In this document: positions 2,397 through 32,474 of the stretch, piece by piece
How the letters are laid out: every line of letters starts with the position of its first letter
Position numbering within the stretch: position 1 is the first letter of the stretch
Source of the DNA: an uncultured Clostridia bacterium
GTDB taxonomy: Bacteria > Bacillota > Clostridia > Christensenellales > Borkfalkiaceae
Direction of reading: 5' to 3'
NCBI GenBank assembly: GCA_944367045.1
Contig: CALVWI010000009.1
Span: forward strand, 16,056 to 80,055
DNA: 64,000 bases
The notes under the pieces: generated by a model
The model's database searches: none
The model's input: the letters and a program-made list of their open reading frames with translations, nothing else
What the model was told of the DNA's origin: nothing
Program-made: the position numbers and the translations under genes

Positions 2397-2400
2397 GAAT

Positions 2401-4101: not shown

Positions 4102-4132
4102 CGGGGCGGTACGGCGTACTGCCCCGTCTTTT
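4102..4132 (+). terminator. Intrinsic terminator after araA
   Basis: An 11-bp stem (CGGGGCGGTAC paired with GTACTGCCCCG, one G-T pair) with a GGC loop is followed by TCTTTT. It separates the ara operon from the alpha-galactosidase. Confidence 0.8.
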
Positions 4133-4185
4133 ATGTCTTGCCGCGTTAGGTGCGGCGGCGCGCGGAGCTTCGCGCGGGAGGAATC

Positions 4186-6243: not shown

Positions 6244-6304
6244 GCGGTTCCCGCACTGCGGCGGCGTTCCTCTTGGAGCGCAACTGAAAATTTTGTGAAT
6301 ATGA

Positions 6305-6342
6305 GCTCGGGCATTGACTTTTGGTGCCCGAGCCATTATAAT
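6305..6342 (+). promoter_or_regulatory. Promoter with the -35 box inside a perfect inverted repeat
   Basis: TTGACT at 6314-6319 and TATAAT at 6337-6342 with 17-bp spacing drive the pyrophosphorylase gene. The arms GCTCGGGCA (6305-6313) and TGCCCGAGC (6325-6333) are exact reverse complements, and the -35 box lies in the intervening 11 bases. It may be an operator, or the tail hairpin of the upstream transcript. Confidence 0.75.
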
Positions 6343-6374
6343 AGAGAGGAAGTTTTTAGTCTCGGGAGGACAAA

Positions 6375-7598: not shown

Positions 7599-7945
7599 TG
7601 GAAGAACAGGCCTCTCAGGTGACCATGGACTTTGCGCAGCAGCTCATCGATTTGAGCCGCGTCATCGTCGACATCTTCAAGTCGAACGATCTCGACAAAC
7701 TCCCCGAGATGAACCGCATCATCAAGGAGATGTACCGCCTTCAGCATGGCAGCGAGGATCCCGCCATGCAGACCATCGACGTGGAGGCGAACGTCATCTA
7801 CACCAATTTCGATATGCTCGTCAAGGTCTTAAAGACGGCGGAGAAGGAGAGCGACCTTGAAAGCCTTCAGAACGCCGTCAACAAATTTTTGCACAACATC
7901 AACGAGGCCACGGTGAATATCGCCGCGATGTTCGGCCTCGTTTAA
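7598..7945 (+). CDS. Conserved-looking hypothetical helical protein
   Basis: 115-residue acidic, predicted all-helical cytoplasmic protein with no membrane segment, cysteine motif or recognised domain. Its ATG overlaps the TAA of the pyrophosphorylase by one base, and GH51 starts 13 bp downstream, so it is translationally coupled inside this operon. The pattern QTIDVEANVIYTNFDML in the middle and a C-terminal NINEATVNIAAMFGLV segment suggest a helical bundle, possibly dimeric. I do not recognise the family and assign no function. Codon use and packing make it a confident gene. Confidence 0.75.
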   Translation: MEEQASQVTMDFAQQLIDLSRVIVDIFKSNDLDKLPEMNRIIKEMYRLQHGSEDPAMQTIDVEANVIYTNFDMLVKVLKTAEKESDLESLQNAVNKFLHNINEATVNIAAMFGLV

Positions 7946-7958
7946 TAGGGAGGAAACC

Positions 7959-16026: not shown

Positions 16027-17001
16027 TCAGTCGAGGAGCGCATCCCTCCGAAGGACGAGATCCTGCGGGATGAGCACCTTGCGGGGGGCCTCGCTTTGGG
16101 TGCAGACAGCCTCGCGGATGCTGTCCGTGAGGATGGCGGTGTTCTGCCGGATGGCGGAGAGGGTGCAGAACTGCAGCCAGCGGTTGTCGTCGAAGGTGAT
16201 GAAGCGGATGCCCGCATGCTCGCGGTCCTTGAGGTGGGTGAGTACTTCGAGGCCCGCGATGTTGGTCGCCGTGATGATGCCGTCGGGGCGGAAGGCGTCG
16301 ATGCGCTGCGTGAGGACACCGACGTCATAATCGACGAGGGGGAAGCGGAGGATGTCGTATTCGGCGCCGCTCCCTTTAAGCGCTTGCAGAAAGCCCGTGC
16401 TGCGGTCGGGGCGGACGCGCTCGGATTCGAGATAGAGGTACTCGACGTCGATGAGCAGCAGCCTCTTACACCCGAGCGAGAGGAGCGTCTCGGCGGCCTG
16501 ACGGCAGCCCGATTCGTCGTCGTTGATGATGGTGTCGAGGTCGGAGTAGATGTCGCGGAAGAGCTGCACGACTTTGATGCCGTTCTTCTTGGCGACGGAG
16601 ATGATCTCGCCGTTTTGGTCGTTGGTGGGGGTGAAGAAGATGGTGGAGACGCGGCTCGCGATGAGGGAACGGAAGCAGGTCTCCTCGTCGACGGGGTTCT
16701 CCGAGCTGAACGCGATGATGAGGTTCATGCCGTTTTCGGTGAGCATCTTCTGGATGTCCGAGAGGATGCTGAAGTAGTACTCGTTGTTGCTGTCCGAAAT
16801 GATGAAGCCGACCGTGCGGAAGTTGCGCGTCTTTAATTGCTGCGCCGTGGAGTTGGCGATGTACCCAAGCTCCGAAGCCGCCTTAAAGACGCTGTCGTGT
16901 GTCTCCTTGCTGATGTAACCGATCTGCCGCAGGGCACGCGAGGCCGTCGAGGGGGACACGTTTGCCCGCTCCGCTACATCCTTGATCGTGATCATATTCA
17001 A
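16027..17001 (-). CDS. LacI-family transcriptional regulator
   Basis: 324-residue DNA-binding repressor. The N-terminal helix-turn-helix and hinge (ITIKDVAERANVSPSTASRALRQ) are classical LacI, followed by a periplasmic-binding-like effector domain (SDSNNEYYFSILSDIQ, DDESGCRQAAE, RSTGFLQAL). It is divergent from the GH32/ABC operon, and two TGCAAACG-type palindromes lie at that operon's promoter, so it is the probable repressor of that operon, released by an imported sugar. The inducer cannot be read from sequence. The start could be the third codon (Met) rather than the first. Confidence 0.93.
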   Translation of the reverse strand: MNMITIKDVAERANVSPSTASRALRQIGYISKETHDSVFKAASELGYIANSTAQQLKTRNFRTVGFIISDSNNEYYFSILSDIQKMLTENGMNLIIAFSSENPVDEETCFRSLIASRVSTIFFTPTNDQNGEIISVAKKNGIKVVQLFRDIYSDLDTIINDDESGCRQAAETLLSLGCKRLLLIDVEYLYLESERVRPDRSTGFLQALKGSGAEYDILRFPLVDYDVGVLTQRIDAFRPDGIITATNIAGLEVLTHLKDREHAGIRFITFDDNRWLQFCTLSAIRQNTAILTDSIREAVCTQSEAPRKVLIPQDLVLRRDALLD

Positions 17002-17120
17002 ACTCCCATACTTTCGATTAAAAATTCGTATATTCAGATTATAACAAAGAATGAAAGATTTGTACAGAAAAAACGCGGCGAAACCGCAAAAAAATCTCAG
17101 AAAAATTTTTCGGATTTCTA

Positions 17121-17149
17121 TTGACAGAATGCGGCTTTCATGTTATACT
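17121..17149 (+). promoter_or_regulatory. Promoter of the GH32/ABC glycan operon
   Basis: TTGACA at 17121-17126 and TATACT at 17144-17149, spacing 17 bp. The operators lie just downstream, as expected for a promoter blocked by a LacI-type repressor. Confidence 0.85.
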
Positions 17150-17158
17150 CATGGCAGA

Positions 17159-17172
17159 TACAATCGTTTGCA
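17159..17172 (+). promoter_or_regulatory. LacI-family operator 1
   Basis: TACAATCGTTTGCA, the reverse complement of TGCAAACGATTGTA, begins 10 bp after the -10 box, over the expected transcription start. It has the central CG of LacI/CcpA-type operators and matches operator 2 at 13 of 14 positions when read on the opposite strand. Confidence 0.8.
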
Positions 17173-17211
17173 TATCGGGGACTTTCCCCTTGATAATTTT
17201 TTTGCCCGATG

Positions 17212-17225
17212 TGCAAACGTTTGTA
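17212..17225 (+). promoter_or_regulatory. LacI-family operator 2
   Basis: TGCAAACGTTTGTA, a near-perfect palindrome in the untranslated leader. Its centre is 53 bp from the centre of operator 1, close to five helical turns, so both sites face the same side of the DNA. Confidence 0.8.
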
Positions 17226-17257
17226 TATCCAAAAATAACCTGTTTTCGGAGGTAAAA

Positions 17258-18682
17258 ATGTACTATAGGGCACCCGGGAAAGCGGTCTGTGCAGACGTCA
17301 TCCCGTTCTATGAGGGCGGGGAATTCAAGCTTTTTTATTTGAGAGATTACCGTGATATTTCCGTTCACGGGGAAGGCTGCCCGTGGTGCCTTCTCACATC
17401 GAAGGATCTTGTCACTTATCATGACTGCGGCCCCGTGCTGCTCCGCGGCGGCGAGGACGAGCAGGACCTCTATGTGTTCACGGGCTGCTGCATCAAGGCG
17501 GGGGAGGAGTATATCATCTTCTATACGGGCCACAATCCGCATCTCCGCGCGAAGGGCCTGCCCGAGCAGAAGATCCTCCGCGCCGTGAGCCGCGACCTCG
17601 TGCATTGGGAGAAGGACAGGGACTTCGTCTTTGCCGCGCCTGATTGGCTGGAGATGCACGACTTCCGCGATCCCTTCGTATTCTTTGACGAGGGGCGGCA
17701 GGAGTACTGCATGTTGCTTGCGGGGAGGCTCAAGAACGGAGACCCCGCATGGGCGCGGGGCGCGACGCTTTTGGCGACTTCTTCCGACCTCACGCACTGG
17801 GAGGTGGAGCGCGAGCCCTTCTATGCCCCGCACGCTTACTTTACGCACGAATGTCCCGATCTCTTCCGCATGGGCGACTGGTGGTACCTCGTGTTCAGCG
17901 AGTTCACCGACCGCATCGCGACGACCTACCGCATGAGCCGTTCCCCCTTCGGCCCGTGGGAGGCCCCCAAGGTCAACACCTTCGACGGTCACGCCTTTTA
18001 TGCGGCAAAGAGCGTCTTTGACGGCAAGCGGCGCATTCTGTTCGGCTGGAACTGCATCAAGCAGGACGAGCGCGACGACGCTCCCTGGCAGTGGGGCGGG
18101 ACCATCATCCCGCACGAGATCGTGCAGCAGCCGGACGGAACGCTTGCCGTCAGATGCCCAGACGAGATCGCGGCGCAGTACCCTTCGCCCGTGCCCTTTG
18201 AAGAGGGCAGGACGATGGGCGGCGTAAAAAGGAGCGGAAGGGGATACCTTCTCGGACGGGAGGGCGTCAGCCTGCAGATGTTGGGGCGCATGCCTGAGAA
18301 CGGCAAGATCGCGCTCACCTTCACCGCTTCGGACGACTGCGGCGAGTTCGGCGTCCTGCTGCGGGCGAACGAGGGCACCGACGCCTACTACGCGGTGCGT
18401 TTCGAGCCCCGCTTCAACCGCCTTGCGATGGACATCCAGCCGCGTGCTGACAACACCCGCCATACGCAGGTGGACGTGGAGCGCTTCTGTCCCATTCTCA
18501 CCGGGGAGAAAAATTGCCTCCTCATCATTTTCGAAGGGAGCGTGCTCGAGGTGTACGTCAACGACAAGGTGGCGATGAGCGCGCGGATGTTCGACCATAA
18601 GGAGGGAGATTTCGGCATTTTTACACACAATACGAGCGTGTGTTTTGAAGATATCGGACTTTATCGGGAGGTGAAGACATGA
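17258..18682 (+). CDS. GH32-like (clan GH-J) glycoside hydrolase, cytoplasmic
   Basis: 474-residue five-bladed beta-propeller enzyme plus C-terminal beta-sandwich, with no signal peptide. GH32 motifs FRDPFVFF and THECPDLF are present; the usual N-terminal WMNDPNG is replaced by CADVIPFYEGG, whose Asp is the likely nucleophile. The Glu of ECP is the expected acid/base and the Asp of RDP the transition-state stabiliser. GH32 enzymes cut fructosyl linkages (sucrose, inulin, levan), but this divergent subgroup has no activity that I can name. The start at 17258 follows GGAGGTAAAA. First gene of the LacI-controlled operon, where it would process the imported oligosaccharide. Confidence 0.82.
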   Translation: MYYRAPGKAVCADVIPFYEGGEFKLFYLRDYRDISVHGEGCPWCLLTSKDLVTYHDCGPVLLRGGEDEQDLYVFTGCCIKAGEEYIIFYTGHNPHLRAKGLPEQKILRAVSRDLVHWEKDRDFVFAAPDWLEMHDFRDPFVFFDEGRQEYCMLLAGRLKNGDPAWARGATLLATSSDLTHWEVEREPFYAPHAYFTHECPDLFRMGDWWYLVFSEFTDRIATTYRMSRSPFGPWEAPKVNTFDGHAFYAAKSVFDGKRRILFGWNCIKQDERDDAPWQWGGTIIPHEIVQQPDGTLAVRCPDEIAAQYPSPVPFEEGRTMGGVKRSGRGYLLGREGVSLQMLGRMPENGKIALTFTASDDCGEFGVLLRANEGTDAYYAVRFEPRFNRLAMDIQPRADNTRHTQVDVERFCPILTGEKNCLLIIFEGSVLEVYVNDKVAMSARMFDHKEGDFGIFTHNTSVCFEDIGLYREVKT

Positions 18683-18873
18683 AAGGACAGCTCATCTCAT
18701 TCACGGTCAAAGCGGCGCTCTTTCTGCTGCTTGCCAACCTCGTGATGCTGTTCATCGTGCCCTTCGGAACGGCCGAGTGGTATATCACGGTCATCTCCGC
18801 GGGCCTGATGGCAGTGCTCCTGGCGGCGATCCGCATCATCTATGCCGTGCGGGAGCGAAGGAAGAAGAAATGA
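18679..18873 (+). CDS. Small two-helix membrane protein
   Basis: 64-residue protein with two predicted membrane helices (about 9-28 and 34-56) and a basic tail (RERRKKK). Its ATG overlaps the stop of the GH32 gene and its stop overlaps the next start (ATGA at both ends), so it is tightly coupled. I recognise no family. In this context it may assist the surface lipoproteins or the transporter, but that is speculation. Confidence 0.7.
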   Translation: MKGQLISFTVKAALFLLLANLVMLFIVPFGTAEWYITVISAGLMAVLLAAIRIIYAVRERRKKK

Positions 18874-20891
18874 AGGGGCGCGGCGTTTGGGCCGTCCTCA
18901 TGGCGGCCTGCCTTGCAGGATGCTGCGTATTCCCCGCGTGTAGGCAGAAGGAGGATCCCGTGAGCGAAAAATTGACCTATGCCGACCTCTACAGGACACA
19001 GCCCGAGCGCACCGGGCCCATTCAGGGCAAGGCGCTCTACAGGGCGTCCTACGGCTATACCCTCATGCAGGAGCAGGGCTACAACGGCTTCCGCTACCAA
19101 TACCGCAGCGGAGGGAGCTTCCTCGACATGCAGAAGGAGGGCGAAGGCTGGCAGGGCGGCGGGGCCTCCATGCAGGGCGCCTCGATGAAGGCGGCGGCGG
19201 ACGCGGATGCGGTGCGGACCTTCGTCGCCCCCGAATCGGGCCTTGCGCGCATCACGGGCAATCCGCGCCTTGTCTCGGGCGAGAGCGCGCACGTCAGCAT
19301 TCTTTTGGGCGGGGAAGTCCTCGCGGAGTACGACGTTTCGGACGGCGAGGGCATCTGGCACGAAGGGGAAGTCACCCTGCAAGCGGGCGATGAAGTGCGG
19401 TTCGTCCTCTCGGGCGAGGCGGAGATCGAATGGAACCCCGCCGTCGACTATACGCTTGCCGAGGAGACGCTCCTCCATCACACCGTGGACGGCTACTACG
19501 GCGACGTGCATCCCTTCTACGACGAAGCGTCGGGAAAGCTGTATATGTACTACCTTTCGACGGGGATGCAGGAGGGGGCAAAGAAGGAACAGTTCTCCTC
19601 CCTCCTCACCGTGAGCAGCAACTTCGTGCAGTACGAAGATACGGAGCTCAAAATGGACGAGAATGACCCGCCCGAACAGGAGCTCTACTATGCGCTCGGC
19701 GTGTATGTGGACGCGGAGGGCAACTACCGCAGCAGCTACGGCAAGGGAAACTATGCGGGCGGCTCGGTGAGCGACGACCTCATCGTCTGGCGCAACGCCG
19801 CCGAGCCCTATATCGACGAGAGCGACGGCCTCCTCAAATACACCTGGCGGGCGTACTTCGACGAGGGCGTCTGGTCGGGACGCGATCCCGACATCACCTA
19901 CGACGCGGAGAGCGGACGATACTACTGCGTCGTCATGAACTACTACTCCTCCGCCGAGGCAAACGGCGAAAAGGGCCTCGCGCTCTACACGGCGGGCGAG
20001 GACGGAAGGTTTTCGACCAAGGCGGTGCGGCTCGTCGATCTGACGGGCAGGGGTGACCCCGAGTGTCCGCAGCTCAAGCGCATCGGCAACCGCTGGTATC
20101 TCTTCTACTCGGTGTACGGGACGGGCACGGCGGGCAACGTCGGGTACCTCACCTACCGCGTGGGGGACGAGAACGTTCCGCCCGAGGAGGTGGACTGGAA
20201 CAGCAAGGAGGAACACGCGCTCGAGGGCGGCGACCTCCATGCGGCGCAGGTGTGCAAAGTAGGGGACTTCTGGTATCTGTTCGGCTGGATCAACTACCGT
20301 CCGCACGCCAACGTCTGGGGCGGGTATCTCAACCTCGCCCGCGAGGTATATCAGCGCGAGGACGGGCTGCTCGCGACCCGCTGCGATGAATACCTTCTCT
20401 CCCTCCTCAACAAGGGGCATATCGCCTCCTTTGCGGGGAACGCCTCTCTCGACGGCATGAAGGAGGAGGACGGAGCGTTCCTTGTCACTTCGGAGACGGG
20501 CGACGCGCGCCTTCCGGAGACGTTCGGCCGCAGCCTCATTCGGGCGGAGATCGAGCTGCCCCTCACCGCTTCCTACGCGGGCGTGACGCTCTCGGAGGGC
20601 GGAAAGACCTACCACGTCCGCCTCAAGAGGCAGAACGGGGAGCTGTACCTCTGCATTGAGAGCGGCTCGGAGGGGTGCAGCGTGAAGGTGGAGGACGCGG
20701 ACGAGACGCACTTCTCTCTGACCGTCGCGGCGGACGGCCCCTTCCTCGAGACATATGTCAACGGCAGCGTTTCGCTCACCTCGCACACCGTGCTCACGGG
20801 CAGCTATACGCTCGGGCTCTCGGGCGGGAAGGGCGCTCAACTTTCGGCCGAAGTGTATAAGCTCGCCGATTACAACAACATTTTCGAATAA
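18870..20891 (+). CDS. GH32-like surface lipoprotein A
   Basis: 673-residue exported lipoprotein. The signal peptide ends in LMAACLAGC, a lipobox with Cys about residue 16. After an N-terminal beta domain of roughly 190 residues, the propeller region carries the clan GH-J pattern: GDVHPFYDEASGKLYMYY (probable nucleophile Asp), SGRDPDITYD and DPECPQLKRIGNRWYLFYS. A C-terminal beta-sandwich follows (ETYVNGSVSLTSHT). The enzyme would act on the cell surface, upstream of import. Start at 18870 overlaps the preceding stop. It is a distant relative of the lipoprotein at 29933, with which it shares the DLYRTQP/ALYKTER opening and GGGASM segment. Activity is inferred from motifs only. Confidence 0.8.
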   Translation: MKGRGVWAVLMAACLAGCCVFPACRQKEDPVSEKLTYADLYRTQPERTGPIQGKALYRASYGYTLMQEQGYNGFRYQYRSGGSFLDMQKEGEGWQGGGASMQGASMKAAADADAVRTFVAPESGLARITGNPRLVSGESAHVSILLGGEVLAEYDVSDGEGIWHEGEVTLQAGDEVRFVLSGEAEIEWNPAVDYTLAEETLLHHTVDGYYGDVHPFYDEASGKLYMYYLSTGMQEGAKKEQFSSLLTVSSNFVQYEDTELKMDENDPPEQELYYALGVYVDAEGNYRSSYGKGNYAGGSVSDDLIVWRNAAEPYIDESDGLLKYTWRAYFDEGVWSGRDPDITYDAESGRYYCVVMNYYSSAEANGEKGLALYTAGEDGRFSTKAVRLVDLTGRGDPECPQLKRIGNRWYLFYSVYGTGTAGNVGYLTYRVGDENVPPEEVDWNSKEEHALEGGDLHAAQVCKVGDFWYLFGWINYRPHANVWGGYLNLAREVYQREDGLLATRCDEYLLSLLNKGHIASFAGNASLDGMKEEDGAFLVTSETGDARLPETFGRSLIRAEIELPLTASYAGVTLSEGGKTYHVRLKRQNGELYLCIESGSEGCSVKVEDADETHFSLTVAADGPFLETYVNGSVSLTSHTVLTGSYTLGLSGGKGAQLSAEVYKLADYNNIFE

Positions 20892-20909
20892 GATCCAGGG
20901 AGGAAAATC

Positions 20910-22886: not shown

Positions 22887-22898
22887 CGGGAGGTGAAA

Positions 22899-23963
22899 AT
22901 GCAAGCAACGACGGCCGCCCGTCCGAGAGGCAAGCGCTTTCTCGCGGCGCTCGGCGCATTCTTTCAGAAATACAGCTACTTCTTCGCGAAGATCGGCATC
23001 TCCGTCCTGACGCTCGCGCTCTCCGTCATCGCACTCTTCTTCCTCCTGCGCATGATCCCGGGGGACATCGTCGAGCTGTATGCCCTCAAGCTGCAGAATC
23101 AGCAGGGCATCACCTTCGACCGTGCGTACGAGCTCGCGGCGCAGCTGCTCAACTATGACCCCAATGAGAACGTCTTTCAGGCCTTCGTGCGCTACATCGG
23201 CGGCCTCTTCCGCGGGGAGCTGGGGACTTCCTACCTCGAGACGGGCGTCTCGGCCAACAGCCTCATCGCGACCCGCCTCCCGTGGACGCTCTTCATCTCG
23301 TCGGTGTCGCTCTTTCTGAGCTTCTTCATCGGTATCGCGGTGGGCGGCTATGTGGCACAGAAGCGCAACGGCGTTGCCAACAAGGTCGCCTCGGGCTTCA
23401 TCGCGGTCTCGGGCTCCGTTCCCGATTACCTCGTCGCACTGCTGCTCGTCATCGTCTTTGCCTATCAGCTCAAGTGGTTTCCCGCGCAGAACAACTACGA
23501 CGCCTTCTCGGTGACCCCGGGGTTCAACCTCCCGTTCATCGGCAGCGTGCTCTACTATGCCTTCCTGCCCATCCTCTCGTACACCATCGTGCAGACGGGC
23601 AACTGGATATTGCACATGCGGGGCAGCTGCATCGGCGTTCTGGGTGAGGACTACATCCTCGCTGCGCGCGCAAGGGGGCTCTCCGAGCGCACCATCCGCA
23701 CCAAGTACATGAAAAAGAACGCGCTCCTGCCGCTCATCACGCAGTTCGGCGTCTCCTTCGGGGCGCTGTTCGGCGGGGCGACGCTCATGGAGAGCATCTT
23801 CAACTACCCCGGCATCGGGCTTGAGATCTCCAACCGCATCATCAGCAAGGACTACATGGTCGTGCAGGGGCTCATCTTTTTCTCCGCGGCGATGGTCATC
23901 CTCGTCAACCTTGTGGTCGATCTCATCTATCCGCTCGTCGACCCGAGGGTGAGAAAGGGGTGA
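22899..23963 (+). CDS. ABC transporter permease, DppB/OppB type
   Basis: 354-residue inner-membrane permease with an N-terminal helix, a large extracytoplasmic loop and five further helices. The EAA-type loop EDYILAARARGLSERTIRTKYMKKNALLP contacts the ATPases, and the family end motif (LVVDLIYPLVDPRVRKG) is intact. The ATG at 22899 is preferred to the in-frame GTG at 22893, which lies in the GGGAGG ribosome site. Paired with the DppC-type permease 4 bp downstream. Confidence 0.93.
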   Translation: MQATTAARPRGKRFLAALGAFFQKYSYFFAKIGISVLTLALSVIALFFLLRMIPGDIVELYALKLQNQQGITFDRAYELAAQLLNYDPNENVFQAFVRYIGGLFRGELGTSYLETGVSANSLIATRLPWTLFISSVSLFLSFFIGIAVGGYVAQKRNGVANKVASGFIAVSGSVPDYLVALLLVIVFAYQLKWFPAQNNYDAFSVTPGFNLPFIGSVLYYAFLPILSYTIVQTGNWILHMRGSCIGVLGEDYILAARARGLSERTIRTKYMKKNALLPLITQFGVSFGALFGGATLMESIFNYPGIGLEISNRIISKDYMVVQGLIFFSAAMVILVNLVVDLIYPLVDPRVRKG

Positions 23964-23967
23964 GCAT

Positions 23968-24879
23968 ATGAACAGGACAACGACCATCAGGAGCGGGGCC
24001 GCGGCCGCGGGACGCTTCTTCCGGGAACTCGGCTGTTCCCTCGCAAGGGGATGCAGGAAGTTCTTCTCCAACACCAAGACGATCGTCGGCTTCTCCATCA
24101 TCGTCTTCTTTATCCTCGTCGCCGTCTTCGGGCCGCTCATCTTTCCCTATGACCCTTCGACCGACATGGCGAACGCCTACCTGATGCCCTCGTGGGAGCA
24201 CCCCTTCGGCACCGACTGGCTGGGAAGGGACGTGTTCCGTCAGGTCATCGCGGGCACGGGCTCCGTGCTCGAAGTCGCCTTCTACTCCGCCGTCTTTACC
24301 GTCGTCATCGGCACGGTGCTCGGCATCGTCAGCGGGTATCTCGGCGGATGGGTGGACAAGGTCATCATGGCGGTCACCAACATCTTTCTCTCCATTCCCT
24401 CCTTCCCGATCTACCTCCTGCTCGCTGCCATCGTCACCATCAATACGCCGGTGTCGCTCGCGGTCATCATCTCCATCTGGAGCTGGGCGGGCCTGTGCCG
24501 CGCCGTGCGTGTGCAGATCATGAGCCTCAAGGAGCGCGACTTCATCCAGATCTGCACCGTCATGCACATGAGCAAGGCGCACATCATCTTCAAGGAGCTG
24601 CTCCCCAACGTGTTCTCCTACGTCGCCATCAACTTTGTCATGGCGATGCGCAACGCCATCATGGCGAGCGTGGGCATCATGCTCGTGGGGCTCGCGGCAT
24701 ACGATCCAACCAACTGGGGCGCGATCATCAACGCGGCGCGCACGAAGGGGCTCATGAACGTCAAGAACATCTATATCCTGCTCTATCCGCTCGTCTGCAT
24801 CATCATCTTCCAGATCTCGACGCTGCTGCTTGCGAACGGGCTGGATGAGACGCTCAATCCCAGACTCAAGGTCATGTGA
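23968..24879 (+). CDS. ABC transporter permease, DppC/OppC type
   Basis: 303-residue permease with an N-terminal helix (IVGFSIIVFFILVAVFGPLIF), the HPFGTDWLGRDVF signature of DppC/OppC proteins, and the EAA loop (ERDFIQICTVMHMSKAHIIFKELLPNV). Forms the heterodimeric channel with the preceding permease. Confidence 0.93.
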   Translation: MNRTTTIRSGAAAAGRFFRELGCSLARGCRKFFSNTKTIVGFSIIVFFILVAVFGPLIFPYDPSTDMANAYLMPSWEHPFGTDWLGRDVFRQVIAGTGSVLEVAFYSAVFTVVIGTVLGIVSGYLGGWVDKVIMAVTNIFLSIPSFPIYLLLAAIVTINTPVSLAVIISIWSWAGLCRAVRVQIMSLKERDFIQICTVMHMSKAHIIFKELLPNVFSYVAINFVMAMRNAIMASVGIMLVGLAAYDPTNWGAIINAARTKGLMNVKNIYILLYPLVCIIIFQISTLLLANGLDETLNPRLKVM

Positions 24880-24887
24880 GGCGCCCT

Positions 24888-25898
24888 ATGCAGACAAACA
24901 GAGACAACATTGCCGTGTTTTCCCACGTCTCCATCGACTACCCCCTCAAAAAGTACACTCTCCGCGCCGTGACGGACATCACCTTCGAGCTCAAGCGGGG
25001 CGCGATCACGGCGCTCGTGGGGGAGAGCGGTTCGGGCAAGACGACGCTTGCGTCCTCGCTCATCCGCTGTATCTCCGAGCCGGGGCGCGTCGCGGAAGGG
25101 GAGATCACCTTCTACGGAAAGGACGGGGAGGAGCGGCTCGACCTCCTTCCCGACCCCAAGATGCGCGCCTTCCGCTGGAGCAAGGTCTCGATGGTCTTTC
25201 AGGCGGCGCAGAGCGCGCTCAACCCCGTGCTCACCGTGCGGGAGCAGTTCACCGAGACGCTCGAGGCGCACGGGGAGAAGCTCTCCAAAGAGGAGCGGGA
25301 GGCGAAGTTTTCAGACCTTCTCGGGTACGTCAAACTGGATGCGGAGCGCGTGCTCGCCTCCTATCCGCACGAGCTCTCGGGCGGCATGAAACAGCGCGTC
25401 ATGATCGCCTTTGCGCTGCTGCTCGACCCCGAGCTCATCATCCTCGATGAGCCGACGACGGCGCTCGACGTCATCACGCAGAACTATATCTTTACGCTTT
25501 TGAAGCAGATCAACCGCGAAAAGGGCATCTCCATGCTCCTCATGACGCACGACATCAGCGTCGTCGCCAAGTTCGCGGACTATGTGGGCGTTATGTACGG
25601 CGGGCGGCTCATGGAGTACGGGGACGTGCGCACCGTCTTTCACCGTCGCAGGCACCCCTACACGGCGGGGCTCATCGGCGCGACGCCCTCCATCATCGGC
25701 GACATCTCCGAGATGAAGCCCATCGAGGGCAGCCCGCCCGACCTTCTGCATCTTCCCAAGGGCTGCATCTTTGCGCCGCGGTGCCCGAGGTGCTCGGACG
25801 TCTGCCTGACGGAGGAGCCGCCCATGCGGGAATATGGAGACGGCAGCAAGGGGAAATGTTACTTCTTCGGGGAGGCAGACGATGGAAAAGGCAACTGA
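24888..25898 (+). CDS. ABC transporter ATP-binding protein, DppD/OppD type
   Basis: 336-residue cytoplasmic ATPase. Walker A GESGSGKTT, signature LSGGMKQR, Walker B LIILDEPTTALD, and the C-terminal oligopeptide/dipeptide extension with cysteines (CIFAPRCPRCSDVC) that in OppD/DppD relatives may hold an iron-sulfur cluster. Start at 24888 follows GAGG; a GTG at 24876 overlapping the previous stop is less likely. The 3' end overlaps the next gene by 17 bp. Confidence 0.92.
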   Translation: MQTNRDNIAVFSHVSIDYPLKKYTLRAVTDITFELKRGAITALVGESGSGKTTLASSLIRCISEPGRVAEGEITFYGKDGEERLDLLPDPKMRAFRWSKVSMVFQAAQSALNPVLTVREQFTETLEAHGEKLSKEEREAKFSDLLGYVKLDAERVLASYPHELSGGMKQRVMIAFALLLDPELIILDEPTTALDVITQNYIFTLLKQINREKGISMLLMTHDISVVAKFADYVGVMYGGRLMEYGDVRTVFHRRRHPYTAGLIGATPSIIGDISEMKPIEGSPPDLLHLPKGCIFAPRCPRCSDVCLTEEPPMREYGDGSKGKCYFFGEADDGKGN

Positions 25899-26931
25899 AC
25901 AGGCAAAGACGCCGCTCATGCGCCTCAAGGGCATCAACATGGTGTTCAAGAAGCCGGGTGCACTGTTTGCGGACAAAAATATCCACGTCCTGAAGGACAT
26001 CGACCTCGAGATCGGCGAGAAGGAGATCGTGGCGCTCGTGGGCGAGTCGGGCTGCGGCAAGACGACGCTCGGCAAGATCATCACGGGGCTGTACCGCCCG
26101 ACGTCGGGCGAGGTGTACTTCGAGGGCGAGCGCGTCTCGGGCACGTTCGACAAGAAGATCTCCTCCTACAATCAGGTGCAGTTCATCCAACAGGACTCCT
26201 ACGCCGCGCTCAATCCCGTGCGCACCATCTATCAGAGCCTGTACGCGCCCATCAAGACGCACAACCGCAAGTGGAGCCGCGCCCGCATCGACGAGCGCAT
26301 CGAGGAGCTCATGGGGCTCATCGGGCTGCTCCCTTCGGCGCAGTTCCTTTCGAAGTACCCGCACCAGCTCTCGGGCGGGCAGAGACAGCGCATCTTGATG
26401 GCGCGCGCCATCTCGCTCGAACCCAAACTCATCGTGGCCGACGAGCCCGTCAGCATGATCGACGTCTCCCTCCGCCTCTCCCTCCTCAACCTCATGAAGG
26501 AGCTCAACGAGAAGCTGGATATGTCCTTCGTGTACATCTCGCACGACCTCTCGACGACGCGCTATATCGCCCACAGCGGGCGGGTGGCGGTCATGTATCT
26601 CGGGGAGATCGTCGAGGTGGGGAAGATCGGCGACGTCATCGCCTCTCCCCGCCATCCCTATACGCGCGCCCTCCTGCAGGCCGTTCCCATTCCCGACCCC
26701 GACTTCAAGGGGAATGACGAGCTGCCGCTCAAGTCCATGCAGCTGGGCTCCCTCGAGAACAGAGGGGAGGGCTGTTCCTTTTTCGACCGCTGCCTGTACG
26801 CCGACGATGCGTGCAGGAAGAAGTTCGGTCCCGTAAAGACAGAGACGGCCGAGGTGCTCTGCTGTGGCCTTGACAGGGTCCCCACGGCTCCCGTCTTTGA
26901 AAAAATCATTCAAACGGAGGAAAATTCATGA
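25882..26931 (+). CDS. ABC transporter ATP-binding protein, DppF/OppF type
   Basis: 349-residue second ATPase of the importer. Walker A GESGCGKTTLG, signature LSGGQRQR, Walker B LIVADEPVSMID, and a C-terminal cysteine-bearing segment (CSFFDRCLYADDAC). Start at 25882 chosen for its GGGGAGG site; an in-frame ATG at 25834 lies deeper inside the preceding gene. With the preceding four genes this completes a five-component importer, so the system needs no shared ATPase such as MsmX. Confidence 0.92.
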   Translation: MEKATEQAKTPLMRLKGINMVFKKPGALFADKNIHVLKDIDLEIGEKEIVALVGESGCGKTTLGKIITGLYRPTSGEVYFEGERVSGTFDKKISSYNQVQFIQQDSYAALNPVRTIYQSLYAPIKTHNRKWSRARIDERIEELMGLIGLLPSAQFLSKYPHQLSGGQRQRILMARAISLEPKLIVADEPVSMIDVSLRLSLLNLMKELNEKLDMSFVYISHDLSTTRYIAHSGRVAVMYLGEIVEVGKIGDVIASPRHPYTRALLQAVPIPDPDFKGNDELPLKSMQLGSLENRGEGCSFFDRCLYADDACRKKFGPVKTETAEVLCCGLDRVPTAPVFEKIIQTEENS

Positions 26932-29876
26932 GCAAAACATTCGCCAATGTCTTGAAAGGGCTCACGGCGGCGCTCGCCGCGGTCTGCCTCGCCCTCGGCA
27001 TCGTCCTTGCCGCGGGCAGCGTTCCGCAGAGGGCATTCGCCGAGGAGACGGAGGGCAAGGTCCTCTATGAAGAGGACTTCTCGGAGGGCGCGGGCGCGCT
27101 CTCGGACTACGTCTCTGCATCGGGCGGAGAGGGGACGGTGACGAGCAATACCATGTTCGACCTGCCCCTTTCGGAGCCTTCGGCATCCAACAACTACTCG
27201 GTGGAGTTTGACCTCAAACTCACGGGCACGACGGAGTTCTACGTCCACTTCGTCGGCCTGGACGGCACCAATCACGACAACATCTATCTGTGCGTCATCG
27301 CGCAGGGCACCTACCTCCGCGTGACGGACAACTACGGCCACGACATCTACAACAACACGGGCGACCTGCACGGCGGGCTCGACGCGACGCCCGTCGACCT
27401 TTCGGACTTCGCGCACTTCAAGCTCGTGTTCTTCGAGGGGTACGTCGAACTGTGGGTGAACGGCACCCGCCGCTGTGTGAGCCACCTTGTCGACTTCGGC
27501 AACAACAACTACATGTCCCGCTCGCCCATCGAGGAGGGGACGATCTCTTCGATCGCCTTCCATGCGCAGAATGCGGGGGCGGCCGTGCTCGACAACATCC
27601 GCGTGACCGAGCCCGTCGGCGGGGCAACGCAATATGAGGCGACGAACGCGGAGGAGAGCACGTCCTCCTCCATGACCTTCCCGCTCTCGGCAGTCAACCT
27701 CTACCGCGAGAACTTCTCGGCAGAGGCGACCTTCCGCATCACGAGCACGGAGGCGGCGGGGTATTATCCCACCCTCAAGCTGTACGGGCTCAACGCCTCC
27801 CTCCGTGGGAACAATCAGAAGGAGTACGCCGTCAACGTGCAGGCGTATGTGGAGGGAAGCTCCTTCCTGCCGCAGATCATGTGGCAGCCCGAGGAGGCCG
27901 ACACGGCATGGCGGGACGTGACGGGAACGGCCGTCACCGTCAGCGAGGGCGACCTCGTCACCATGCGCGTCGAAGTGTACGGCGATCATTTCGACCTCTA
28001 CGTCAACGGCGAGCTCAACGCCTCCTCGACCTTCTCCGAGATGGGCCTTGAGGAGGGCCGCGTGCAGTACATCCGCGTGCAGAGCGGGGGCGGCGGCGCC
28101 GTCTGGACGCGCTTTGCCTATTGCGGGTTCGAAGGGGAGAACGGGATGTCCGTCACGGCGGACGAGACCCTCGTCATGGAGGGAACGCCCGTCACCTTCA
28201 CGGCACAGCCCTTCGGCGAGCGCGTATCGGATTGCGCATGGTATGTGAACGGCGAACGGCAGGCGGAGACGGGGCTCACCTTCGTCCTTGAGGGCGAGGC
28301 GGGCGAGTACTCCGTGCAGTACGGCAGCGGCACGCTCATGAGCGAGCCCGTCACGGTCACCGTCGTCGACCGCATGATCACGCTGTCCGCGGACAGGACG
28401 GAGATGTATCCCACCGAGTCGCTCACCGTCACGGCGGAGCTCATGGGCGACTTTACGGGCGAGAATTTTGCGTGGTACTTAAACGGCGAGAAGCTCGAGG
28501 AAACTTCGGCGTCCGTCACGCTCTCCTCGCTTGCGGCGGGCAGCTACACGCTGCAGTATAAGAGCGAGAACTGCGAGAGCACCATTACTTTCACCGTGCT
28601 CGAAGCGGAAGTCACCGTGACGACGGAGAAGAACAGCTACTTTACCGATGAGACCGCGACGTTCACGGCAGAGCTTTCGGGCATCCGTGAGGGCGAGAGC
28701 ATCTCGTGGTATGTGGACGGCACGCTGCAGGAGGGCGCAGAGGGCGAGACCTTCTCCCTTCCCATGAGCGCCTATGAGGCGGGCAGCAAGGTGAGGGTGT
28801 CTGCCGAGGCCGCGGGCATCCGCAGCGAGGAAGTGACGGTGAGCGTCGCCTTCGACGTCATGCAGTCCATCAAGGACAACGAGTACTACAAGATCGTCTA
28901 TGAGGACGTTCTCGAGGAGGGCGGCACCTACGGCAACTTCTCCGTCGGCAAGGACGAGGACGGCTCGCTCTACCTCTTCAGCGAAGTCGCGAACAACAGT
29001 ACCTACTACACGCTGAACGCGCCGTCGCTCTCGGGCACCGAGTATCTCTTCTCTTATGAGCTGTATATCCCCGCCGACGTCTCCATCAAGAGCTATATCT
29101 ATCCCTGCCTTGCGGGCCTCAATTCCAACTATCCCGCGGGCATGGTGGAAGTCGCGTGGGAGGTCAATCCCGAGGGCGTGCGTCCATATATCAAGGACCA
29201 GAGCACGGGCAAAGAGTACCTCCACACCGAGTACGGCTTCGGGCTCGATCTGAGCTACGAGGGCGGCATCGCCAAAAAGGGAGACTGGAACGAGATCGCG
29301 GTCGCCGTCTCGGGCAACTATGTCTCCATGTATATCAACGGGCAGATCGCGCTCTTCTTTGAGATGACGGGTGCAACGGTGCCCTCGGGCATCAGCTTCA
29401 ACCTCTTCCCCGACGGCGGGACGGGCGTCGTGCCCCTGCGCATCCGCAACATCCTCATCGCGGGCGTCGTGGAGCCTGCCCCCGACCTTCAGAGCGTCAC
29501 CGTCTCCCTCTCCTCCGTCAATGTGGAGAAGGGCGGCACCCTGACTGCCTCCGCAACACTCAACCCCTTCAACGCCGAGGCGAATGAGATCGTCTGGTAC
29601 GTCAACGGCGAGAAGGCGGGCGAGGGCTCCCTCAGCTTCACCTTCACGGCAGAGGAGGAGGGCGAATACACCGTCGTGTGCGAAGTGGACGGCATCCGCA
29701 GCGCGGAAAAGACGTTCACCGTCACGGCTCCCTCGGGCGGTGACAGCGGGAGCGAACCATCGGACAACACCGGGCTTTGGATCGGCATCGGCGTTGCGGC
29801 CGGCGTCGTCGTCATTGCGGGCATCGTCATCGCAGTCGTCGTCGTGAAAAAGAAGAAGTCCGAGAAGGACGAGTGA
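26928..29876 (+). CDS. Large membrane-anchored surface protein with lectin-like and Ig-like repeats
   Basis: 982-residue exported protein: signal peptide (residues 1-39, ending QRAFA), two or three concanavalin/laminin-G-like beta domains (about 45-390), three Ig-like repeats of about 80 residues (about 400-640), another lectin-like domain (about 645-845), a fourth Ig-like repeat, then a membrane helix (GLWIGIGVAAGVVVIAGIVIA) and a Lys-rich tail. The Ig repeats share a WYVNGE/WYLNGE/WYVDGT core. No catalytic motif or LPXTG is seen, so it probably binds polysaccharide at the cell surface. Start overlaps the preceding stop (ATGA) after CGGAGGAAAA. It sits between the importer and the second GH32-like lipoprotein. 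Domain borders are approximate. Confidence 0.8.
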   Translation: MSKTFANVLKGLTAALAAVCLALGIVLAAGSVPQRAFAEETEGKVLYEEDFSEGAGALSDYVSASGGEGTVTSNTMFDLPLSEPSASNNYSVEFDLKLTGTTEFYVHFVGLDGTNHDNIYLCVIAQGTYLRVTDNYGHDIYNNTGDLHGGLDATPVDLSDFAHFKLVFFEGYVELWVNGTRRCVSHLVDFGNNNYMSRSPIEEGTISSIAFHAQNAGAAVLDNIRVTEPVGGATQYEATNAEESTSSSMTFPLSAVNLYRENFSAEATFRITSTEAAGYYPTLKLYGLNASLRGNNQKEYAVNVQAYVEGSSFLPQIMWQPEEADTAWRDVTGTAVTVSEGDLVTMRVEVYGDHFDLYVNGELNASSTFSEMGLEEGRVQYIRVQSGGGGAVWTRFAYCGFEGENGMSVTADETLVMEGTPVTFTAQPFGERVSDCAWYVNGERQAETGLTFVLEGEAGEYSVQYGSGTLMSEPVTVTVVDRMITLSADRTEMYPTESLTVTAELMGDFTGENFAWYLNGEKLEETSASVTLSSLAAGSYTLQYKSENCESTITFTVLEAEVTVTTEKNSYFTDETATFTAELSGIREGESISWYVDGTLQEGAEGETFSLPMSAYEAGSKVRVSAEAAGIRSEEVTVSVAFDVMQSIKDNEYYKIVYEDVLEEGGTYGNFSVGKDEDGSLYLFSEVANNSTYYTLNAPSLSGTEYLFSYELYIPADVSIKSYIYPCLAGLNSNYPAGMVEVAWEVNPEGVRPYIKDQSTGKEYLHTEYGFGLDLSYEGGIAKKGDWNEIAVAVSGNYVSMYINGQIALFFEMTGATVPSGISFNLFPDGGTGVVPLRIRNILIAGVVEPAPDLQSVTVSLSSVNVEKGGTLTASATLNPFNAEANEIVWYVNGEKAGEGSLSFTFTAEEEGEYTVVCEVDGIRSAEKTFTVTAPSGGDSGSEPSDNTGLWIGIGVAAGVVVIAGIVIAVVVVKKKKSEKDE

Positions 29877-29889
29877 TATCGTGCGGGAC

Positions 29890-29917
29890 GGCCGCGCGCG
29901 GGAGCGCGCGGCCCTTT
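29890..29917 (+). terminator. GC-rich hairpin between the surface protein and lipoprotein B genes
   Basis: GGCCGCGCGC (29890-29899) and GCGCGCGGCC (29904-29913) form a perfect 10-bp stem, but the tail is CTTTCCCC, so it is more likely a partial terminator or mRNA-stability hairpin that lowers expression of the last gene. Confidence 0.5.
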
Positions 29918-29932
29918 CCCCTGAGGAGGAAC

Positions 29933-31840
29933 ATGAAGAGAATACTCGCGGCGGCAGCCGCAGGATGTTTGATGATCTGGGGGTTATTGCCGATGTGTGC
30001 CTGTAAGGAAGAGGAGGCGCCGTTCGACTATGCGGCGCTCTACAAGACGGAACGGACGCAGCCGTACGAGGGCGAGGCGCTCACCTCGCGCTCCCGCTAC
30101 GGCTACACCTGTGCGAACGCGCAGGGCTTTCACAACTGGTACTATCTCTACGGAAGGGCGGGCGCGCTTTCCGAGATGACGTGGGATGCGTCCAAGAGCC
30201 GCTGGACGGGCGGCGGGGCCTCCATGGACGGCGAACTGCTCTCCCCGTCGGGCGAAAATATGGCGGTCAGGATGTACCGCTCTCCCTCGGGCGGAGAGGC
30301 CGTCCTCTACGGCAACTACCGCGCCGCAGGGGAGGAGGGCGCCTCGGTGCTCGTCTTTGTCGACGGCGAGAAAGTCTATGAGGGCACCCTGCAGGGCGGC
30401 GACACGGTGGGGTACTACATGGAAGTTCCCGTCACCCTCCGCGAGGGCAGCGAGGTGTGCTTTGCGGCCTCGGGCGGGGATGTATTGTTCGATCCCGCCG
30501 TGACCTTCGAGAACGCGCAGAACGAGTCGCTCTATCACCTGACCGCCGCGGGCAAGCAGTACGGCGACGTCTTTCCCTACTACGACGAGGAGCAGCACCG
30601 CCTCTACATGGGCTTTCTGTGGTCGGACAATGCGGCGCTCCCCGACAACTACCACGACGCCCTCGAAGTTTCCGACAACATGCTCACCTATACCGATGTT
30701 CCCGAGGCGAACAACTACGACGTGTGGCAGTACTACCGCGAGCACTACCGCCTCCATCAGCTCTTTGACGTGAGCCGCTTCTGCGACAGGAGCATCTATC
30801 CCTATGGCGTGCGCGACAATATGCTGTACTTCGACGAGGAGAACGGGCGCTATCTCATGGTCGCGGGCTGTTACTATGCGTTCGACGCCGCGGCGCAGAC
30901 CTCCGACCTCGTCATCTACGCATCTGACGACGAGATGGGCCTGAGCTGGACGCAGCCCGCAAACGTCGTCGAGGCAGGCTATTCGCGCAACCTGCCCGAG
31001 TGCCCCTCCCTCATGAAGATCGGGAACAGGTGGTACGTCTTTGTCTCGGTCGCCTACAACACGGCGCATCAGGTGGGGCTGCTCCAATACTGGACGGGCG
31101 ACGAGGGCGTCGACTGCATGGACGTCGACTGGTCGCAAAAGGAGTTCGCTTTCCTCGACGGCGAGGACCTCTGTGCGGCGCGTCCCACGCAGGTGGGGGA
31201 GAAGGTGTACCTCTGGGGCTGGATCCCCTCCACCTACGACAGTATGCCCTGGGCGCCCTGGGCGGGCTATCTCAATCTTCCGCGTGAAGTCGTCGTGCGC
31301 GAGGACGGCTCCCTCGGCGGTCGGCTGGATCCGGGGCTCTCCGCGCTCCTCAACTACGGCAAGGTGTACGCGGTGGGGGAGGGGAACTTTACGGCGGAGA
31401 ACGCCTCCTATGCGGACGGAACGCTCATCTCGGGCGGCGGGCTCGTGCGCCTCGGCGACTTCCACCGCACCTATACGACCTTCCGTATGGATATGAATGA
31501 GAGTCAAAGAGCGGGCATTCAGATGGAACAGGACGGAAAGCGGTACCAGGTCGTCATCGAGCGGGAGGGCGGAAAAGCCTTCATGAAGGTACTCTCTCCC
31601 GATGATCCGTCGCACAAGGTGAACAGCACGATCTGCCTTCCCTCCGATACGGGCGTGTTTGACGTCAAGATCGTCTCCGACGGAGAATTTATCGAGTTCT
31701 TTGTCAACGATACCTGCGCCCTGACTGCTCACACCGCAATGACGGGAATGTCGCATACGCTCTCGCTTTTTTGCGACAAGGAAGCGGAATTTTCCAATGT
31801 CAGCGTCTCCAAACTCCGTCCCTACGGAGAGATCGACTGA
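29933..31840 (+). CDS. GH32-like surface lipoprotein B
   Basis: 635-residue exported protein with a hydrophobic signal (AAAAAGCLMIWGLLPMCAC) ending in a plausible lipobox cysteine. It resembles lipoprotein A: an ALYKTERTQPYEGEAL opening, a GGGASM segment, GDVFPYYDEEQHRLYMGF (probable nucleophile Asp), LPECPSLMKIGNRWYVFVS and a C-terminal beta-sandwich. The middle motif reads GVRDNMLYF, with Asn replacing the Pro of RDP. That may indicate changed specificity; the Asp itself is kept. Start follows GAGGAGGAAC at 29933. Last gene of the operon before a terminator. Activity is not established. Confidence 0.75.
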   Translation: MKRILAAAAAGCLMIWGLLPMCACKEEEAPFDYAALYKTERTQPYEGEALTSRSRYGYTCANAQGFHNWYYLYGRAGALSEMTWDASKSRWTGGGASMDGELLSPSGENMAVRMYRSPSGGEAVLYGNYRAAGEEGASVLVFVDGEKVYEGTLQGGDTVGYYMEVPVTLREGSEVCFAASGGDVLFDPAVTFENAQNESLYHLTAAGKQYGDVFPYYDEEQHRLYMGFLWSDNAALPDNYHDALEVSDNMLTYTDVPEANNYDVWQYYREHYRLHQLFDVSRFCDRSIYPYGVRDNMLYFDEENGRYLMVAGCYYAFDAAAQTSDLVIYASDDEMGLSWTQPANVVEAGYSRNLPECPSLMKIGNRWYVFVSVAYNTAHQVGLLQYWTGDEGVDCMDVDWSQKEFAFLDGEDLCAARPTQVGEKVYLWGWIPSTYDSMPWAPWAGYLNLPREVVVREDGSLGGRLDPGLSALLNYGKVYAVGEGNFTAENASYADGTLISGGGLVRLGDFHRTYTTFRMDMNESQRAGIQMEQDGKRYQVVIEREGGKAFMKVLSPDDPSHKVNSTICLPSDTGVFDVKIVSDGEFIEFFVNDTCALTAHTAMTGMSHTLSLFCDKEAEFSNVSVSKLRPYGEID

Positions 31841-31869
31841 CGTATCACACCGATAAAACCGAGAGAGGA

Positions 31870-31895
31870 CCGGGCGGGATGCCCGGCCTTCTTTT
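31870..31895 (+). terminator. Terminator of the GH32/ABC operon
   Basis: CCGGGC (31870-31875) pairs with GCCCGG (31881-31886) around GGGAT and is followed by CCTTCTTTTGTG. Confidence 0.75.
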
Positions 31896-32028: not shown

Positions 32029-32460
32029 ATGAACGAAAACCGAGAGCTTGACGGCATTCATTTTTTGTTTCCCGTGGGGGAGAAGACGCCTGCTAAATCG
32101 CAGAAGTCCTTTACGGGCGGGGACGTGTATCATTTCATGTTCATTCCGCACGAGAGCAAACTCAACTGTCCCTTGGGGAACGTGACTTACACGCCCGGTT
32201 CGCGCAATAGTTGGCACGCGCACCCCGGGCTGCAGGTGCTTCTTGTCACCTACGGAAGGGGCTGGTATCAGGAGGAGGGAAAAGAGCCGCGCGAATTGCA
32301 CGCGGGCGATTACGTCGTCGTGGAGCCCGGCGTCAAGCATTGGCACGGCGCCGCGAAAGACAGCTATATGGCGCAGCTGGGGTTTGTCGCCAACTGCCCC
32401 GAAAACTCTACGCTGACCTTTGAGCACGTTTCGGACGAAGAATACAGTAAATTACCATAA
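32029..32460 (+). CDS. Cupin-domain protein
   Basis: 143-residue single-cupin protein. Metal-binding residues appear in NSWHAHPGLQVLLVTYGRG (HxH and later residues of motif 1) and EPGVKHWHGA (motif 2 His). Such proteins can be small enzymes or ligand binders and are often paired with a reductase. It is followed 14 bp later by an SDR gene and probably shares its transcript. A -10 (TATACT at 31992) lies upstream, but no convincing -35 was found. Substrate unknown. Confidence 0.85.
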   Translation: MNENRELDGIHFLFPVGEKTPAKSQKSFTGGDVYHFMFIPHESKLNCPLGNVTYTPGSRNSWHAHPGLQVLLVTYGRGWYQEEGKEPRELHAGDYVVVEPGVKHWHGAAKDSYMAQLGFVANCPENSTLTFEHVSDEEYSKLP

Positions 32461-32474
32461 AAGAGGAGAAAAGC

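Follow-up and report, generated by a model that had tools for sequence, protein, structure and literature searches.

A predicted LacI-controlled operon that combines GH32-type enzymes with an Opp/Dpp-type importer in an uncultured Clostridia bacterium

Introduction

Importers of the Opp families carry mostly peptides, and genes called 'peptide transporter' are usually taken to serve amino-acid nutrition. Import of a fructan by an Opp-type system has already been published: inuABCDEF of Lactobacillus delbrueckii JCM 1002, which is annotated as an oligopeptide transporter, gives B. subtilis the ability to take up inulin, and its authors found no identical cluster elsewhere by homology (PMC8346543). 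This paper concerns an operon of nine genes, in which three GH32-type proteins are combined with a complete Opp/Dpp-type importer, in a stretch of 64,000 nucleotides (the window) from an uncultured Clostridia bacterium (GenBank assembly GCA_944367045.1, contig CALVWI010000009.1, positions 16,056 to 80,055). The genome consists of 1.89 Mb in 46 contigs, and the G+C content of the window is 60%. We consider it reasonably probable that this operon is repressed by LacI and serves the use of a fructan or other beta-fructofuranosidic glycan.

The inuABCDEF transporter resembles the importer of the window in that it is an oligopeptide-annotated ATP-binding cassette (ABC) transporter of a Firmicute, has two permeases and two ATPases, and takes a fructan. 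It differs in that it has two binding proteins and takes inulin polymers, not levan (PMC8346543). In the accessible parts of that paper, no hydrolase, lectin protein or LacI is described for the inu cluster, unlike the window locus (PMC8346543). The initial annotation of this DNA regarded a complete peptide-type importer in a glycan locus as unusual. It is unusual, but inuABCDEF is a precedent (PMC8346543). The binding proteins of another Lactobacillus genome (G919; genomes, contigs and loci are designated by G, C and L numbers) give only 48 bits with the profile of SBP5, the binding protein of the window. In the levan locus of Bacteroides, cutting at the cell surface precedes import (PMC6560043), as in the pathway proposed below for the window, but import proceeds via SusC/SusD (PMC7782687). 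The operon for difructose anhydride I (DFA I) of Bifidobacterium dentium, like the window locus, contains LacI, an intracellular GH32 enzyme and an ABC importer; it also contains a DUF2961 enzyme (PMC8605356).

Short listings of the open-licence literature contained no report on Clostridia in which an Opp importer is linked with GH32 enzymes, and none on Gallimonas and fructan or on xylulofuranose and O-polysaccharide. What is described here, beyond Opp-type fructan import itself, is a Gram-positive glycan locus with an Opp-type importer slot, which recurs with exchangeable GH32 surface enzymes.

Organization and control of the operon

A Gram-positive polysaccharide-utilisation locus has a degrading enzyme, a transport system and a regulator, and all three types of gene are found together at this locus. 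The genes GH_A, GH_B, SBP5, PermB, PermC, ATPD, ATPF, Surf and GH_C are co-directional from 17258 to 31840 (Table 1). The open reading frames and Pfam matches give the content and order that the initial annotation had described (LacI, three GH32-like proteins, a full Opp/Dpp importer and an anchored lectin/Ig-like protein), and its proposal of a glycan-utilisation operon with GH32-like enzymes and a dedicated Opp-type importer is thus borne out by gene content and Pfam. The starts of GH_A, GH_B, ATPF and GH_C were chosen by eye. With these starts, the intergenic gaps are 187 bp upstream of GH_B, 56 bp upstream of GH_C and at most 18 bp elsewhere, or the genes overlap. A start of GH_A at the upstream position 17051 is unlikely, because the promoter and operators occupy 17121-17225. 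The packing of the genes and the hairpin downstream of GH_C suggest that the operon is transcribed as a single unit; terminator-like hairpins are in modest excess in this stretch (17 found versus a shuffle mean of 12.0). Lipoboxes and signal peptides were assigned by eye, as was the label CUT1 used below. Surf appears to have a signal peptide at its N-terminus and a membrane anchor at its C-terminus, and its domains are lectin-like and Ig/PKD-like.

The near-consensus promoter followed by two palindromes supports the LacI control that had been proposed earlier. As judged from sequence, a LacI-type regulator and palindromic sites at the operon promoter, which define a LacI-regulated operon, are both present. 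The operator pattern, which was derived from these two sites, occurs with one mismatch or less only at these sites in the window (4 strand-matches versus 0.04 expected in shuffles). In the whole genome, the palindromes at 17159 and 17212 are the only exact matches, and when one mismatch is allowed, 10 strand-matches are found versus 4 for a reversed control pattern. By eye, G060, L049, L050 and L051 have a comparable promoter and palindrome pair.

Table 1. Positions in the window of the repressor gene, control elements and operon genes, with the basis of each assignment
Feature	Position	Strand	Basis or remark
LacI-family repressor	16027..17001	(-)	divergent from operon; Pfam LacI 56.7 bits, Peripla_BP_1 53.9 bits, both above cut-off
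Sigma-70-type promoter, TTGACA-17-TATACT	17121..17149	(+)	11/12 consensus positions
Operator-like palindrome 1, TACAATCGTTTGCA	17159..17172	(+)	predicted from sequence
Operator-like palindrome 2, TGCAAACGTTTGTA	17212..17225	(+)	predicted from sequence
GH_A, cytoplasmic GH32 enzyme, 474 aa	17258..18682	(+)	no signal peptide by eye; Glyco_hydro_32N 106.7 bits, 32C 38.2 bits
GH_B, GH32-like lipoprotein, 673 aa	18870..20891	(+)	lipobox by eye; N-terminal domain of about 200 aa; PF00251 23.3 bits (cut-off 22.1)
SBP5, family-5 solute-binding lipoprotein, 658 aa	20910..22886	(+)	lipobox by eye; PF00496 (SBP_bac_5) 132.3 bits (cut-off 32)
PermB, OppB/DppB-type permease	22893..23963	(+)	PF00528 (BPD_transp_1) 126.6 bits (cut-off 26)
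PermC, OppC/DppC-type permease	23968..24879	(+)	PF00528 75.8 bits (cut-off 26); OppC_N 38.7 bits (cut-off 24)
ATPD, OppD/DppD-type ATPase	24876..25898	(+)	ABC_tran 103 bits, oligo_HPY 65 bits
ATPF, OppF/DppF-type ATPase	25882..26931	(+)	ABC_tran 108 bits, oligo_HPY 57.5 bits, scanned from longer reading-frame start 25834
Surf, surface protein, 982 aa	26928..29876	(+)	Laminin_G_3 38.5, Ig_3 35, PKD_3 31.4 bits, above cut-off
GH_C, GH32-like lipoprotein, 635 aa	29933..31840	(+)	PF00251 36.6 bits (cut-off 22.1), from reading-frame start 29777
Terminator-like hairpin 3' of GH_C	31870..31886	(+)	consensus scan; no proof of function alone

Conservation of the operon

Named genomes were scanned with a GH_A profile, and the best 80 of 320 relatives were retained. 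Removal of repeats from the same genome (L104, genome of L056; L087, contig of L072) leaves 78 GH_A loci. Two loci of Anaerolineae (L067, L093) with Opp-type genes nearby and no SBP5 match of 90 bits were scored as importer-free, and L050, the contig of which stops within SBP5, as importer-positive. A second GH32-type enzyme was scored by tblastn at 90 bits or more with four query proteins, a search that other types could escape. Among these best 80 of 320 relatives, the named ones closest to GH_A belong to Candidatus Gallimonas faecavium and to uncultured Clostridia; chicken, deer, sheep or rabbit is mentioned for some of them.

The importer is present in 13 of the 78 loci, and a second GH32-type enzyme lies near in every one of them. 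In contrast, such an enzyme is found in only one of the 28 importer-free loci with a GH_A match of 380 bits or more (Fisher 8e-10, a value that ignores kinship). When only loci with at least 3 kb on each side are counted, the numbers are 11/11 versus 1/26. On the GH_A tree the importer label changes four times, versus a mean of 17.4 when it is shuffled. The second enzyme is of GH_B type, a lectin-domain GH32 or a canonical GH32, so that its type varies and the GH32 class is constant.

A search anchored on SBP5 at 1e-70 finds matches in 13 of 398 family genomes, and GH_A adjoins in 11 of these 13; up to three candidates were scored per genome in the SBP5 searches, so that these counts may be low. 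The two without GH_A alongside are G033, in which the contig ends soon after PermB, and G1046, in which two pectate-lyase-like proteins, in place of GH32 genes, come after an importer of the same type (L178:13-4784). The whole set with GH_B is found in three of 151 family genomes, namely the own genome, G060 and G046. In G129, of the same genus, GH_A, the importer and Surf-like proteins are present, and a lectin-domain GH32 replaces both GH_B and GH_C. G129 has two Surf-like proteins, one of which lacks any Pfam domain at 1e-4, and the Surf counterpart in G046 has two other domains. Altogether, GH_A and the importer occur together in at least 15 genomes (13 from the 78-locus set, the window and G1026). 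The comparison of gene order in related genomes, which had been proposed as a check, therefore does not reveal a one-off arrangement; the operon is a conserved unit that recurs in related genomes.

Two further types of protein are found near GH_A relatives. Proteins of 829 and 953 aa without a Pfam match at 0.001 flank an additional copy of GH_A in a genome that has an importer-linked locus (L087:357-2846 and 4429-7290). A protein of about 1080 aa follows GH_A in L070, L071, L082 and L096. It has DUF6259, NPCBM and a weak GH66 match in L082, and its identity is about 65% between L082 (Paenibacillus) and the three Cohnella loci.

GH32-type enzymes

GH_A matches Pfam GH32N and GH32C and hence falls within clan GH-J, in line with its GH32-like label in the initial annotation. 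It is the only one of the three that is secured as GH32 by its GH32N score (106.7 versus 22.1 bits). Its best match in the PDB is the endo-levanase BT1760 (E 3.4e-49), and the alignment spans both modules of BT1760. The catalytic residues of BT1760 are Asp41, Asp169 and Glu221, and its pocket floor is formed by Asp41, Thr104 and Cys222 (PMC6560043). In the alignment, D13, D138, E198, T75 and C199 of GH_A correspond to Asp41, Asp169, Glu221, Thr104 and Cys222 respectively, and D13, R137-D138-P139 and E198-C199 are invariant in four orthologues. These results suggest that GH_A retains the levanase pocket floor. GH_A differs from BT1760, to which it is distantly related in the tree, in being cytoplasmic, whereas BT1760 is a cell-surface enzyme.

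When scanned from a longer reading frame, GH_B has no GH32N match at E 0.1, and only a weak GH43 match (17.5 bits, 0.0027). The trimmed protein gives 23.3 bits with PF00251, just above 22.1. Its AlphaFold model (pLDDT 87, pTM 0.87) was compared by Foldseek. BT1760 ranks first among solved structures (E 1.6e-20), ranks 1-23 are all GH32-type, and the first GH43 structure appears at rank 24, with a TM-score to target of 0.38 versus 0.71 for BT1760. Assignment of GH_B to GH43 or GH130 was rejected, because the weak GH43 match from the longer frame is all that supports it and the fold search ranks GH32 first and GH43 far below. The five-bladed propeller and beta-sandwich of GH32 are predicted for GH_B by the model and for GH_A by the alignment. 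GH_C is 34% identical to GH_B. All three hydrolases keep the GH32 catalytic acids in alignments, and neither the two Asp (nucleophile and stabiliser) nor the acid/base Glu varies in any of the 14 alignment rows, eight of which are GH_B-type and three GH_C-type. We know of no assay for any of the three GH32-type branches that GH_A, GH_B and GH_C represent; the locus supplies all three for study.

As noted in the initial annotation, the WMNDPNG motif of GH32 is absent from all three, and ADVIPFY, GDVHPFY and GDVFPYY are present instead. The suggestion that this DV(I/H/F)P(F/Y)Y motif hints at a non-standard fructan does not hold. Lack of WMNDPNG neither excludes the proteins from GH32 nor argues alone against a fructan, because BT1760, a characterised and accepted member that ranks first for GH_A in sequence and for GH_B in fold, has GDPMPFY there, and a lipoprotein GH32 of the own genome on contig C5 has GDPMPYY.

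Importer

SBP5, PermB, PermC, ATPD and ATPF form a full Opp/Dpp set, with SBP_bac_5, two BPD_transp_1 and two ABC_tran plus oligo_HPY matches far above the Pfam cut-offs. A separate Opp set is encoded elsewhere in the genome, on contig C32. We infer from the gene context that the importer carries oligosaccharides, not peptides. The ten best fold entries for the SBP5 model (pLDDT 79, pTM 0.72) are chitooligosaccharide-binding proteins, several being mutants of one protein. This ranking leans towards sugars without deciding the ligand. TM1223 and TM1226 of Thermotoga maritima and the Vibrio chitooligosaccharide-binding proteins, which are among the best folds, are family-5-type oligosaccharide binders, as is proposed for SBP5, but they bind other sugars, with 14-17% identity in structural alignments. 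The best NCBIfam names for SBP5 are far below cut-off (Opp4A, 52 versus 650 bits; Opp5A/NikA, 41 versus 600 bits).

Distant relatives of the importer are found in 6 of 391 genomes at 1e-60 and in 4 of 398 at 1e-70 (class and phylum samples, own genome included), with the same limit of three candidates per genome. By Pfam, they lie a few genes from GH125 (L135), GH127 (L137) or GH130 (L143, L145), and in L134 near ABC permeases of another type; L136 and L138 end early, and L144 was outside the Pfam scan. If oligosaccharides are the cargo of this importer clade, the label 'peptide transporter' is misleading in Clostridia and Bacilli, and the use of fructans or furanosides would be under-counted in uncultured bacteria.

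Substrate and alternative explanations

If the operon serves a beta-fructofuranosidic glycan, GH_B and GH_C would cut the chain as lipoproteins on the outer face, and the anchored Surf, with its lectin/Ig-like domains, would keep the glycan near the cell. SBP5 would bind the released oligosaccharides, PermB/PermC with ATPD/ATPF would import them, and cytoplasmic GH_A would hydrolyse them. A sugar of the pathway would free LacI from its two operators.

Several relatives point to fructan. The operon of G046 ends in a WNNDPNG GH32. The importer-linked GH_A operon of L057 contains a WTNDPNG GH32 and, between it and SBP5, a DUF2961 gene (8191-9294, GH172-type); an alpha-fructofuranosidase is the founding enzyme of the DUF2961 family as GH172 (PMC8605356). 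In three loci with Bifidobacterium relatives of GH_A (L105, L116, L119), DUF2961 lies a few genes off; they so resemble the DFA I operon, but, unlike the window locus, they have CUT1-type permeases. Among 37 importer-free loci with GH_A below 380 bits, a second GH32 match is found in 14, including loci of Paenibacillus, which have PfkB, and loci of Lactobacillus, which have a phosphotransferase system (EIIABC in L124) and a WMNDPNG GH32.

On contig C5, the same genome has a further locus, apparently an ordinary one for fructan (L043/L044, 45290-59825). It resembles the window locus in having the lipoprotein GH32 with GDPMPYY, a cytoplasmic GH32, ABC permeases and, by eye, a lectin/Ig-like lipoprotein. 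It differs in its enzymes with WMNDPNG and WINDPNG motifs, in its two PfkB kinases, which score 229.9 and 228.8 bits, and in its two permeases, which are CUT1 by eye instead of Opp and for which Pfam gives BPD_transp_1 only. Its putative binding protein has no Pfam family at 0.001. Control of this locus by the LacI of the window was discarded, because no operator match with one mismatch or less is found there. The window locus is likely to serve a second type of fructan or a related beta-fructofuranoside, with levan-type, mixed or other linkage, because the C5 locus already appears to serve the ordinary one.

The following points weigh against the proposed fructan pathway. BT1760 forms a very long branch in the GH_A tree, and we know of no characterised enzyme in the GH_A clade. 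GH_B has Leu at the position of Thr104 of BT1760, and GH_C has RDN in place of RDP, with the Asp retained; their pockets therefore differ from that of BT1760. The PF00251 scores of GH_B and GH_C prove little, because GH130 proteins score 24-34 bits: those of L143 (11220-13073), used as a control, give 24.2 and 34.5 bits, above the cut-off of 22.1. In the fold list of SBP5, the next entries bind EDTA, mannobiose, nickel or peptides, and those for EDTA, nickel and peptides come within a few orders of magnitude. The window locus has no sugar kinase, and PfkB is matched in none of the 13 importer-linked loci. The 28 importer-free loci with GH_A of 380 bits or more have no PfkB and, with one exception, no second GH32; the second GH32 is likewise absent from 23 of the 37 with weaker GH_A by the same search. 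Where GH_A homologues of 42-64% identity are importer-free, their neighbours include GH2 (L053), GH29 and GH31 (L055), ROK (L064), a major facilitator superfamily sugar transporter (L068) or ABC permeases. FGGY kinases in three relatives (G046, L056, L176) are all XylB above cut-off, and that of L056 adjoins LacI. Two further findings are adverse or neutral. A nucleoside-hydrolase gene directly follows the importer ATPase at the operon end in two loci (L060:19579-20523, L061:10875-11699), and a DUF4185 gene (L056:2675-3823, 182 bits) lies a few genes from an importer-linked locus.

The two GH130 proteins of L143 also indicate that GH32N matches near the cut-off are generally untrustworthy. As for the kinases, that of L056 is 55% and that of L176 46% identical to that of G046. 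The use of the FGGY kinase as a marker of the locus is weakened by a XylB-like gene elsewhere in the own genome (574 bits), the product of which is 60% identical to the G046 kinase. This gene lies close after a gene for an L-fucose-isomerase C-terminal domain on contig C30 (L190:376-4005), unlinked to the window locus.

It is possible, though doubtful, that the same operon logic applies to a non-fructan furanoside (D-arabinofuranosyl, xylulofuranosyl or difructose-anhydride-type), and that both the GH_A clade and the GH_B/GH_C pair have diverged from the GH32 specificity for fructans. The remodelled pockets of GH_B and GH_C, the XylB-like kinases of the three relatives, DUF2961 in L057, DUF4185 in L056, the non-fructan neighbours of importer-free GH_A and the C5 locus are all in its favour. 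In contrast, canonical NDPNG GH32 enzymes lie within two importer-linked loci (G046, L057), and GH_A keeps the levanase pocket floor. DUF2961 and DUF4185 each occur in one importer-linked genome only, the own genome gave no DUF2961 match in a search in which the control genomes gave none either, and the own XylB-like gene lies apart from the locus. In its general form, this explanation would make the operon one of a class of Clostridia/Bacilli operons, in which GH32-fold enzymes and a clade of Opp-type importers have been co-selected for a non-ordinary furanoside (ketopentofuranosyl, D-arabinofuranosyl or anhydride-linked), with GH_A, GH_B and GH_C representing three new GH32-related specificities. 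We regard this generalization as speculative and rather unlikely.

That GH_B and GH_C are non-catalytic fructan-binding proteins of GH32 fold, with GH_A as the sole cutting enzyme, is unlikely. The absence of a Thr104 counterpart from GH_B, the RDN of GH_C, the long N-terminal domain and the exchange of GH_B/GH_C for other GH32 proteins in relatives would be explained in this way, but the invariance of the three catalytic acids described above speaks against it. Finally, it is quite improbable that a true peptide (or nickel or other) Opp importer lies by chance amid glycan genes, with the system consisting of the hydrolases and surface protein only: the sub-cut-off NCBIfam names and the importer of G1046, which is without GH_A yet still in a glycan setting, can be cited for it, as can the mostly peptide cargo of Opp families, but GH32 genes accompany the importer even where SBP5 has diverged to 31-42% identity (near-same order in L060 and L061, GH_A at the end in L072), a separate Opp system is present on contig C32, and distant importer relatives lie near GH130, GH125 and GH127.

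Flanking genes

The cupin and short-chain dehydrogenase/reductase (SDR) genes downstream (32029-33446) were rejected as members of the operon, because none of 10 flanking proteins is matched at 1e-3 in L025-L032 (including G060 and G046). No match to this flank is found downstream in G935 (L192) either. The close relative G1040 retains the cupin (93%), the SDR (87%), two more downstream genes and the upstream FeoB (89%), with a GH_C-cupin spacing of about 2.8 kb; we attribute this to synteny between near relatives and do not count these genes in the operon. An L-arabinose operon lies farther upstream, at 81-9482. It encodes an FGGY kinase (81-1676), AraD, AraA and an alpha-L-arabinofuranosidase-type protein, as well as a protein that resembles beta-L-arabinopyranosidase; the matches of this last protein and of the kinase (XylB, 118 bits) fall short of their cut-offs.

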